Shown here: positions 16,715-64,000 of the stretch, piece after piece
Position numbering within the stretch: position 1 is the first letter of the stretch
Layout of the letters: each line of letters begins with the position of its first letter
NCBI GenBank assembly: GCA_025454855.1
Contig: JALONS010000014.1
Span: forward strand, 1-64,000
From: Arcicella sp.
GTDB taxonomy: Bacteria; Bacteroidota; Bacteroidia; Cytophagales; Spirosomataceae
DNA: 64,000 nucleotides
Direction of reading: 5' to 3'
Notes under the pieces: generated by a model
What the model saw: the letters and a program-made list of their open reading frames with translations, nothing else
Told to the model about the DNA's origin: nothing
Database searches by the model: none
Position numbers and translations under genes: made by a program

Positions 16715-17191
16715 TCAAATTAACTTTATTTTCTCAATCAAACTTGTTGTTGAATAACCTTTCACCAAAGGAATTGTTTTTACGTTTCCTCCTTTTGCTA
16801 TAACAAAATCTGCTCCTACAATAGTTTCAAGTGAATAATCATCTCCTTTTACTAAAACATCAGGCTTTACGGTTTGGATAAGTTCTAATGGGGTAGGTTC
16901 ATCAAATAGTACTACGGCATCTACAAATTCAAAAGCTGCCATCATCCGTGAGCGAGCGTATTCATTCACCACAGGACGAGTTTCTCCTTTTAGTCGGCGA
17001 ACGGAGGCATCGGTATTTAAACCCAGTACCAATTTATCTCCCAATCCACGGGCTTTTTCTAAATAATCTATGTGTCCTAAGTGTACAATATCAAAACAAC
17101 CATTTGTAAAAACGATTTCTTTTCCTTCCGCTTGCCATTTTTGTACTTGTTCAGTAATGGACTCTCGACTGTAAATTTTATGCTCGGTCAT
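16715..17191 (-). CDS. rfaE2: D-glycero-beta-D-manno-heptose 1-phosphate adenylyltransferase
   Basis: [20 protein letters not shown] nucleotidyltransferase motif; [13 protein letters not shown]-terminus. Confidence 0.93.
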
Positions 17192-17262
17192 AATTTTTAG
17201 ATGATAGATGATATATTGTAGAGGTTAGAGAATAGATTATAGAGAATTTTCTAATCTCTATC

Positions 17263-40348: not shown

Positions 40349-41014
40349 TCAAATATCAACGCATTCCATTAATAATAAATCTCCCTGTTGATGGGTAATT
40401 TGAATAATTCCATCCTCTGCTACTTCATTACTGCTACCCGTTCTGTAACCCATTAAAAGGCTTTCATTGTTTAATGAGTACTTTAAATTTTGTGTGGTAA
40501 TTCCAGTTACCTCTCCAATAGGAATTAGGGAAATGGGCGTACCCTGCGGGTACCATTTTTCGTAGTTTCTCGGTAAAAGGAAAATCTTGGAGTAGTCGTC
40601 CAATAAAACAATCTTTAACTGCTCTCTAAACCTCACAATATTGGTGATGTTAGTAATGGTATGGTCGGCACGCCTACCCGTTGCCCAAATAACATTTACC
40701 GCAGGAAAACCTCTGTTAATTAAATATTCAAAGGCTTTTTCAAGGTCTGTTTTGTCTTGGTCGGGCGTATGAACTACCTCTATTGGATATTGTTCTTCTC
40801 GGATTTTTTCAGCGTCAAAATCTCGGTCAAAATCCCCTAAAAGTACATCTACTTTAATATTTAAGGATAAAACTCGATGAATGGCAGAGTCTAAAACTAC
40901 CACCAACGGCGACCATTCCAATAATTCTCCCATCAATTCCATACTACACGCTTCGCCATTGGCAATGATAAGGGCAGGTTCTTGTTCGTCTCGAATAATA
41001 TGATGTGATGACAT
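40349..41014 (-). CDS. Thiamine pyrophosphokinase/diphosphokinase-like
   Basis: VDVLLGDFDRD, DQDKTDLEKAFEYL, TGRRADHTITNI. Confidence 0.9.
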   Translation of the reverse strand: MSSHHIIRDEQEPALIIANGEACSMELMGELLEWSPLVVVLDSAIHRVLSLNIKVDVLLGDFDRDFDAEKIREEQYPIEVVHTPDQDKTDLEKAFEYLINRGFPAVNVIWATGRRADHTITNITNIVRFREQLKIVLLDDYSKIFLLPRNYEKWYPQGTPISLIPIGEVTGITTQNLKYSLNNESLLMGYRTGSSNEVAEDGIIQITHQQGDLLLMECVDI

Positions 41015-41081
41015 TTTCGATGTTCGATTTTTGATATTCGATGTTCAATTTTCAAACATCGAAAACCGAACATCGAACATT
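41013..41081. repeat. Inverted heptad-type cassette filling the intergenic space
   Basis: attttcgatgttcgatttttgatattcgatgttc then aaacatcgaaaaccgaacatcgaacat; 31/34 identity of one arm to a waaA-internal repeat arm (63469-63502, reverse complement). Confidence 0.75.
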
Positions 41082-42315
41082 ATTTTTCCATACTTAATTC
41101 TCCTTCCCATTTGGCTACAACGGCAGTAGCTACGGCATTTCCTGCTACTGACGTGGCTGAACGTCCCATATCCAGAAGCCAATCTACGGCAAAAAGTAAA
41201 ATAAGTCCTTCGGCAGGTAAATTAAACATCGACATCGTTCCCGCAATTACCACCAACGAAGCACGTGGTACACCTGCAATACCCTTACTGGTAATAAGTA
41301 AGGTAAGCATCATGGTTACTTGTTGGGCTACTGTAAGTTCGATACCGTAGGCTTGGGCAATAAATCCTACGGCAAAAGTCATGTACATCATTGAGCCGTC
41401 GAGGTTGAAAGAATAACCCAAAGGCAATACAAAGCTGACGATTCTTTCGGGTACGCCAAATTTTTTCAACTGTTCAATCTGTAAGGGCATAGATGCCTCA
41501 GAACTTGCCGTACTAAAAGATAAGAAAAGGGCATCCTTTACGTATGCTAATAATTTCCAGTAAGGTACTTTTACAAACATACAGATAGCGGGTAGCACCA
41601 CTAATATAAAAAATGCCAGCGTAGCAAAGAAACAGATTATCAAGTAAAAATATCCTCCTAAAATCCCCAATCCTTTTTGTGCAATGACGGCTGCCACTGC
41701 CCCAAAAACCCCGTAGGGAGCAAAACCCATGACATAGCTCACAATTTTGAACATGATTTCAGAAACGGCATCGAGGGCTTTGATGATAATTTTACCGTGG
41801 TCGCCGATGGCGGCGGTTGCAATACCAAAAAATACTGAGAACACCACAATTTGTAAGATTTCGTTGGTAGCTAAAGCCTCAAAAAAACTTTGTGGAAAAA
41901 GGTGCGTAATGAAATTTTCCATCGTCATTTTCTTGGCTTCAATCCCCGTATCAGCTCCTGCTTCTGGCAGTGGAATCTGCATCATCTTACCAGGGCGAAG
42001 AATATTAACCGCCACTAAACCTGTGAGTAAAGAGAGAATGGTAGCAAAATAAAAATATCCTAAAGTCTTTGCCCCTATTCTACCCACCAATTTAAAGTCT
42101 CCTAATTTGGCAATACCTACAGTAAGAATTGAAAAAATGAGTGGTCCGATAATCATTTTAATCATTCTAAGAAAAATTTTGCTTAGAAGATTCAAATACG
42201 TACTGGCTGAGGCAAGTGCTTCTTTATCAGTGCTATACTTTTGGTTTAGAATGTACCCGACGATGATACCGAGGCTCATGCCGATAAAAATTTTCCAAGT
42301 AATATTTAGTTTCAT
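41080..42315 (-). CDS. Dicarboxylate/amino acid:cation symporter (DAACS family)
   Basis: PLGYSFNLDGSMMYM, SKGIAGVPRASLVV, DWLLDMGRSATSVAGNAV. Confidence 0.95.
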   Translation of the reverse strand: MKLNITWKIFIGMSLGIIVGYILNQKYSTDKEALASASTYLNLLSKIFLRMIKMIIGPLIFSILTVGIAKLGDFKLVGRIGAKTLGYFYFATILSLLTGLVAVNILRPGKMMQIPLPEAGADTGIEAKKMTMENFITHLFPQSFFEALATNEILQIVVFSVFFGIATAAIGDHGKIIIKALDAVSEIMFKIVSYVMGFAPYGVFGAVAAVIAQKGLGILGGYFYLIICFFATLAFFILVVLPAICMFVKVPYWKLLAYVKDALFLSFSTASSEASMPLQIEQLKKFGVPERIVSFVLPLGYSFNLDGSMMYMTFAVGFIAQAYGIELTVAQQVTMMLTLLITSKGIAGVPRASLVVIAGTMSMFNLPAEGLILLFAVDWLLDMGRSATSVAGNAVATAVVAKWEGELSMEK

Positions 42316-63310: not shown

Positions 63311-64000
63311 ATGCAAACTTTATCGGCAATACTATATAATCTTTCTATTTATGCCTACCAGCTAATCATCTGGTTAGTAAGCCCCTTCAATAAAAAAGCT
63401 AAATTGTGGATAGAAGGCAGAAGAATCGATATTCGATATTCGATGCTCGATGCTGGTTTAAGCTCATCCGAACATCAAATATCAAACATCAAACATCGAA
63501 AATCCCAAACGGCTTGGTTTCATTGTGCTTCGTTGGGTGAATTTGAACAGGGGAGACCCGTTATTGAGCAATTTAGGAAGAGCTTCCCCGACTATAAAAT
63601 TGTTTTGACATTCTTTTCACCATCGGGCTATGAGATAAGAAAAAACTATGAAGGAGCTGATTTTATCTGTTATTTACCCGCCGATACGCCCTCTAATGCA
63701 CTTGACTTTATAGAGAAAATTCAACCATCCATCGCTTTTTTTGTGAAGTATGAATTTTGGTACAACTACCTCCGAATCCTCCACGAAAAGGACATACCTG
63801 TTGTTTCTTTTTCTGCCATTTTCAGAGAAAACCAAATATTTTTTAAGTGGTACGGACAATTTCACCGTCGTATTTTAGGGTATTTTTCTCATATTTTTGT
63901 GCAGAATCAAACGTCTTTAGATTTATTGCAAAATATTGGTATTCAGAACGTTAGTATTGGCGGTGATACTCGCTTCGACCGTGTTAATCAGATTGCTAAC
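63311..64000 (+). CDS. waaA: 3-deoxy-D-manno-octulosonic acid transferase (Kdo transferase), 3' truncated by the window edge
   Basis: Manual translation is open to the window end: FNKKAKLWIEGR...WFHCASLGEFEQGRPVIEQFRKSFPDYKIVLTFFSPSGYEIRKNYEGAD...VKYEFWYNYL...GGDTRFDRV. Confidence 0.94.
   Translation, partial: MQTLSAILYNLSIYAYQLIIWLVSPFNKKAKLWIEGRRIDIRYSMLDAGLSSSEHQISNIKHRKSQTAWFHCASLGEFEQGRPVIEQFRKSFPDYKIVLTFFSPSGYEIRKNYEGADFICYLPADTPSNALDFIEKIQPSIAFFVKYEFWYNYLRILHEKDIPVVSFSAIFRENQIFFKWYGQFHRRILGYFSHIFVQNQTSLDLLQNIGIQNVSIGGDTRFDRVNQIAN
63424..63502. repeat. Inverted heptad-type cassette within the waaA reading frame
   Basis: Left arm atcgatattcgatattcgatgctcgatg; right arm gaacatcaaatatcaaacatcaaacatcgaaaat matches 41013-41046 at 31/34 (reverse complement). 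Confidence 0.75.

Follow-up and report, generated by a model that had tools for sequence, protein, structure and literature searches.

STRR-like heptad repeats in the predicted disordered linker of WaaA and at other sites in Arcicella

The window (the whole 64,000-nt stretch of Arcicella sp. DNA analyzed here) ends with the 5' part of waaA (63311-64000, plus strand), identified from its open reading frame (ORF) and a Pfam match and encoding 3-deoxy-D-manno-octulosonic acid transferase, an essential enzyme of the lipopolysaccharide pathway; the remainder of the gene lies beyond the window, and the full ORF (L001:1412-2713) specifies 433 amino acids. The product carries the domain PF04413 (Glycos_transf_N; E=1.2e-44) and the best fold match to its model is 2xci, the Aquifex WaaA (E=2.6e-9), so that domain and fold agree on its identity. 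Between WIEGR and AWFHCASLGEFEQG (AWFHCAS), WaaA contains a repeat-derived linker, RIDIRYSMLDAGLSSSEHQISNIKHRKSQT (residues 38-67), encoded by 90 nt, or 30 codons, at 63422-63511 on the plus strand and recognized from the sequence and from comparison with homologues. The DNA of the linker consists of a left arm, a spacer, and a right arm, the two arms being degenerate, inverted arrays of TTCGATG-type heptads. The left arm (63427-63454, plus strand), delimited by lag-7 analysis, holds the four heptads CGATATT, CGATATT, CGATGCT, and CGATGCT, and the right arm (63474-63504, minus strand) holds the inverted heptads ATCAAAT, ATCAAAC, ATCAAAC, and ATCGAAA followed by ATC. A sequence-only reading of this DNA had noticed a repeat segment of about 30 residues with an open frame, and both observations hold: the frame is open throughout, and the 30-residue segment is the most 7-bp-periodic 90 nt in the window.

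In the AlphaFold model of WaaA (mean pLDDT, 87.6), residues 42 to 53 score below 50 and most others above 90. The model suggests that the linker is a disordered connector, with a confidently predicted anchor helix on one side and the N-domain on the other, in agreement with the earlier placement of the repeat at the anchor/N-domain junction. At the DNA level, the linker folds no better than shuffled sequences (z = -0.67), which rules out a stable hairpin at this copy; strong hairpins are, by contrast, predicted for an intergenic cassette at 41013 (z = -4.8) and for the waaA copy of a congener, G003 (z = -6.6). The earlier term "inverted repeat" is thus apt for the arrangement of the heptad arms, but the copy in the source genome (G000) is a degenerate palindrome that has no fold above background. 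Palindromic repeats are also read in frame in waaA of congeners (seven), in the leucyl- and alanyl-tRNA synthetase genes (LeuRS and AlaRS), and in others. Rfam gave no match in the window at the gathering threshold.

Among the 63,911 90-nt segments of the window, lag-7 self-match averages 0.27 (SD, 0.056) and reaches its maximum, 0.64, at 63420; the waaA linker itself scores 0.58 to 0.63. Values of at least 0.55 occur in three blocks only, 17157-17249, 40989-41116, and 63399-63521. The first, of AGATGAT/AGAGAAT type (no strand assigned), lies at the start of a 158-amino-acid ORF (16715-17191, minus strand). The second contains an intergenic hairpin of TTCGATG-type heptads (41013-41080, no strand assigned), defined by sequence match, lag-7, and folding, which fills the gap from the ATG of a 221-amino-acid gene (40349-41014, minus strand) to the stop codon of a dicarboxylate-symporter-like gene (41080-42315, minus strand). 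The waaA linker matches positions 41013-41046 of this cassette on the opposite strand at 91% over 34 nt, a stretch that overlaps the right arm; this is the 31/34 match reported earlier. A BLAST-type search of the source genome with a 121-nt query returned 19 matches, one of them the query itself, so that some 17 further places match the waaA repeat. Most copies are intergenic, as expected of the dispersed noncoding repeat that had been proposed, and others are in-frame coding copies.

Strong period-7 loci are numerous in the genus, with 25 in 713 kb of the source genome (a sample picked partly via repeat matches) and 30, 20, and 12 in 400 kb each of G007, G005, and G001, respectively, and in all four samples period 7 exceeds every control period. 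Among Bacteroidota, long TTCGATG arrays have a patchy distribution, being found in 5 of 296 other sampled genomes. One contig of the source genome (C4; L058, 3081-3186) terminates within a long GCAGTAA array, and heptad arrays probably break the assembly.

We compared WaaA from 110 loci and ranked the linkers by lag-7. Outside the linker, WaaA is well conserved. Outgroup linkers are mostly 18 to 24 residues long, variable, and not repeat derived, and because homologues have such a segment at this position, the repeat replaced a tolerant linker rather than being added to an uninterrupted gene, as the word "inserted" in the sequence-only reading had implied. Heptad-bearing Arcicella linkers (75 to 153 nt; 25 to 51 amino acids) top the ranking, at 0.46 to 0.63 against about 0.2 to 0.3 elsewhere. 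One WaaA from outside the genus, that of the Bacteroidota metagenome-assembled genome L127, is also among the highest (0.49 for the whole linker and, for a hand-cut repeat part, a descriptive 0.60) and is a possible independent case. Heptad DNA is present at the linker in seven of eight Arcicella genomes, in differing motif families, and the comparison rules out a unique insertion in the source lineage, a point that had been put forward for checking. TTCGATG-type linkers occur in G000, G003, G004 (where the copy is double length), and G007, and the other motifs are GTTCTGG in G005, ATTTNGG in G002, and AGTTGGC/AATTAGC type in G006. G002 and G006 are sisters in a WaaA tree built without the linker (support, 100/97), yet their linkers are 0.60 identical, the same as the maximum for shuffled sequences (0.60), against 0.90 for the 660 nt downstream.

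The motif in the linker partly follows the family that is abundant in the same genome. Counted as tandem 14-mers with one mismatch on both strands, TTCGATG occurs 81 times in G000, 130 in G003, 37 in G004, and 14 in G007, against 3 to 5 in G001, G002, G005, and G006. GTTCTGG occurs 22 times in G005, whose linker has that motif, and 0 to 3 times in the other genomes; AGTTGGC occurs 20 times in G005 and 5 in G006. Counts of ATTTTGG are uninformative, since the reversed control is equal or higher in several genomes. The tracking is only partial because TTCGATG is rare in G007 despite its TTCGATG-type linker and because the motifs of G002 and G006 are not clearly the commonest in their genomes, which makes the tie of these two linkers to an abundant family a weak one.

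A similar exchange is seen between genes. In the gap orthologous to 41013, the hairpin is of TTCGATG type in G000, G003, and G006 and of ATGAGGT type in G007. That of G002 is less strongly 7-bp periodic (lag-7, 0.42), that of G004 is made of 8-bp units (lag-8, 0.50), and that of G005 is plain and nonrepetitive; in G001, both flanking genes were matched but lie on different contigs. Hairpins are predicted to fold at all compared gaps. As judged from these gaps, the site and the hairpin form persist and the sequence is exchanged between species. Upstream of LeuRS and AlaRS, too, differing heptad arrays lie close to the start codon in several congeners.

Heptad arrays are also read in frame within other proteins, as a search for further coding copies, suggested by the sequence-only reading, confirmed. 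Domains were assigned with Pfam, and the segments compared were cut by hand, so that the lag-7 values given for them are descriptive. In AlaRS, the loop after GGQVGDSG is encoded by CAGTTAT heptads in G007 and G004 and by GCAGTTG-type heptads in G005 and G006, and it lacks heptads in G001 and G008. The editing-domain loop of LeuRS contains AACCCCT heptads in G007 and G004 and a degenerate TTCGATG-like segment in G000, and it is plain in G001, G002, and G006. The G005 assembly has two LeuRS genes (L225 and L238), one with a plain loop and the other with a GC-rich palindrome (GCCCCCCCC...GGGGGGGC) instead. In G038, from another family of the order, the LeuRS editing loop (L233) consists of AAATTCG heptads (lag-7, 0.88), apparently an independent case outside Arcicella.

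How such arrays can be translated follows from their unit length. Because 3 does not divide 7, an array of a stop-free heptad encodes one and the same heptapeptide in every frame, and only its net length must remain a multiple of three. The four families present in waaA linkers, TTCGATG, GTTCTGG, AGTTGGC, and ATTTTGG, were computed to have no stop codon in either orientation; a TTCGATG array reads FDVRCSM and, inverted, HRTSNIE. CAGTTAT and TTACTGC have stops on one strand, and the AlaRS and lipoprotein genes show the stop-free orientation. About half of all heptads are stop free in both orientations. This property is permissive and is not evidence of selection.

Overall, we favor, at roughly three chances in four, an STRR-like hairpin repeat of heptads that spreads recurrently and is tolerated at sites where a disordered linker can take it up. 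The waaA segment would be an old copy of a dispersed TTCGATG-family repeat of 7-bp units in inverted arms, which would have spread through the Arcicella genome in family-specific bursts and taken the place of a variable, disordered linker. There it is presumably translated as part of WaaA, and it could be tolerated because it lies in a flexible spacer between anchor helix and N-domain, is built of a stop-free heptad, and reads as the same heptapeptide whatever the frame. The repeat would be neutral in WaaA and recurrently replaced by copying from resident families, occupied sites staying so as their motif family changes from one species to another. A plausible, if putative, route would combine slippage during replication, template switching at hairpins, and copying from one cassette to another. 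More tentatively, these repeats may form a class of element whose site and hairpin form are inherited while the 7-bp sequence is periodically overwritten genome-wide by a new family, essential protein-coding genes included; we regard this broader proposal as doubtful at present. If it is true, a copying process would write species-specific heptapeptides into housekeeping proteins.

The strongest competitor, although an improbable one, holds that MITE- or REP-like cassettes are moved in trans by a transposase such as a RAYT/Y1 enzyme. The palindromic form, the dispersal, and the species-specific bursts would fit, and the genome has six Y1_Tnp genes, but no heptads lie beside any of the six in flanks examined up to about 1.5 kb. 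Moreover, no conserved termini, target duplications, or empty site with a target duplication were seen, cassette sizes vary continuously, unrelated motif families have just the 7-bp period in common, and the loops look replaced, not duplicated. Less probable still is that the repeat-derived linker is selected in WaaA, whether because it sets the distance or orientation of the catalytic domain above the membrane or because it takes part in an interaction, which is the exaptation that the sequence-only reading had proposed. In its favor, the frame is open, with no stops, in all heptad-bearing congeners, and their linkers are longer than those of most outgroups. However, a kept frame is already expected from selection on the downstream enzyme, the linker is predicted to be disordered, and its sequence and length vary widely among congeners and even between sister species; the wholly unlike linkers of G002 and G006 suggest tolerance rather than a selected sequence, and exaptation in WaaA is a possibility rather than a finding. 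We also consider it unlikely, to a somewhat greater degree, that the linker is a low-complexity segment that arose in place by slippage and is unrelated to the dispersed copies. Slippage by 7 bp plausibly shapes such arrays, as the double-length G004 copy may illustrate, but simple slippage does not make inverted arms, and the linker motif agrees with the family dispersed through its own genome, both at 41013 and across the search matches. An artefact of the metagenome-assembled genome (474 contigs, 84% complete, some ending in heptad arrays) can be dismissed, since a homologous insert in the isolate A. aurantiaca DSM 22214 (L067; A. rosea, L066, is without it) refutes a chimera at waaA and other Arcicella assemblies also have heptad linkers.

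The favored reading, a spreading and tolerated heptad repeat, invites comparison with known systems. The cyanobacterial STRR are degenerate 7-bp units and include the heptanucleotide stem-loop of the Nostoc tRNA-Leu intron, a heptad stem-loop within a functional gene, with different heptad classes at one site. The Arcicella repeats are likewise degenerate 7-bp arrays that stand above other periods, but they occur in Bacteroidota and in protein-coding sequence, whereas STRR lie in RNA genes or between genes; we term them STRR-like rather than STRR because their host genus is not cyanobacterial. TAACTGA heptamer direct repeats are dispersed in five Bacteroidetes, mainly between genes and often just 5' of start codons, alongside other heptamer repeats in some intergenic regions, and one orientation is stop free, reading LSVISYQ (MacGregor 2015, PMC4679880). 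The Arcicella repeats resemble them as dispersed, mostly intergenic 7-bp units, and the CAGTTAT family of G007 is the TAACTGA heptad in cyclic permutation on the other strand; such arrays occur elsewhere in the genus, and the waaA copy is of TTCGATG type. In contrast to the one heptamer treated there, mostly in direct, hairpin-free repeats with coding copies chiefly at protein ends (PMC4679880), Arcicella has several families with inverted arms, lying inside conserved housekeeping proteins and swapped at orthologous sites. Rickettsia palindromic elements (RPEs), which are about 150 bp long and for which ten families have been described, are dispersed palindromes found in frame within unrelated genes and read as protein (PMC10969869). 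The Arcicella palindromic repeats are similarly read in frame within genes, but they are arrays of 7-bp units of variable length, with many motifs and swapping, which would set them apart from an element of fixed form. REP/RAYT palindromes and MITEs share with them the form of short dispersed palindromes between genes, but for the heptads neither a fixed consensus nor defined ends were seen, nor, in the flanks examined, a linked transposase. Among published descriptions, those of TAACTGA repeats and RPEs come closest. The Arcicella heptads offer a case outside Rickettsia of dispersed noncoding repeats read in frame within essential proteins and suggest a simple rule for how this can work, namely that if a unit lacks stops and its length cannot be divided by three, every frame gives the same reading. 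The occurrence of different families at the same sites in close relatives makes the spread of heptamer repeats testable by strain comparison.

A better candidate for exaptation than the WaaA linker is a lipoprotein signal peptide. In a TPR lipoprotein (L202:1782-2603, minus strand; orthologues, L241-L248), the core of the signal peptide and the lipobox, CLLLTVSCFLLTACTG, are encoded by TTACTGC-like heptads, with lag-7 values of 0.53 to 0.74 in seven Arcicella genomes against 0.24 in G001 and G008. To judge from its translation, LLLTAYC, which resembles a lipobox core, the heptad appears to supply both the hydrophobic core and the lipobox, a possible conversion of a repeat into a working protein signal. 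Further in-frame heptads occur in a methyltransferase, at the N terminus of an S8 protease, and in a protein without a Pfam hit that we take to be the C-terminal part of DnaX. In a hybrid histidine kinase (L175:10642-14337, plus strand), the linker from the receiver to the Hpt domain contains about 130 residues of a QRIENNE-like heptad repeat.
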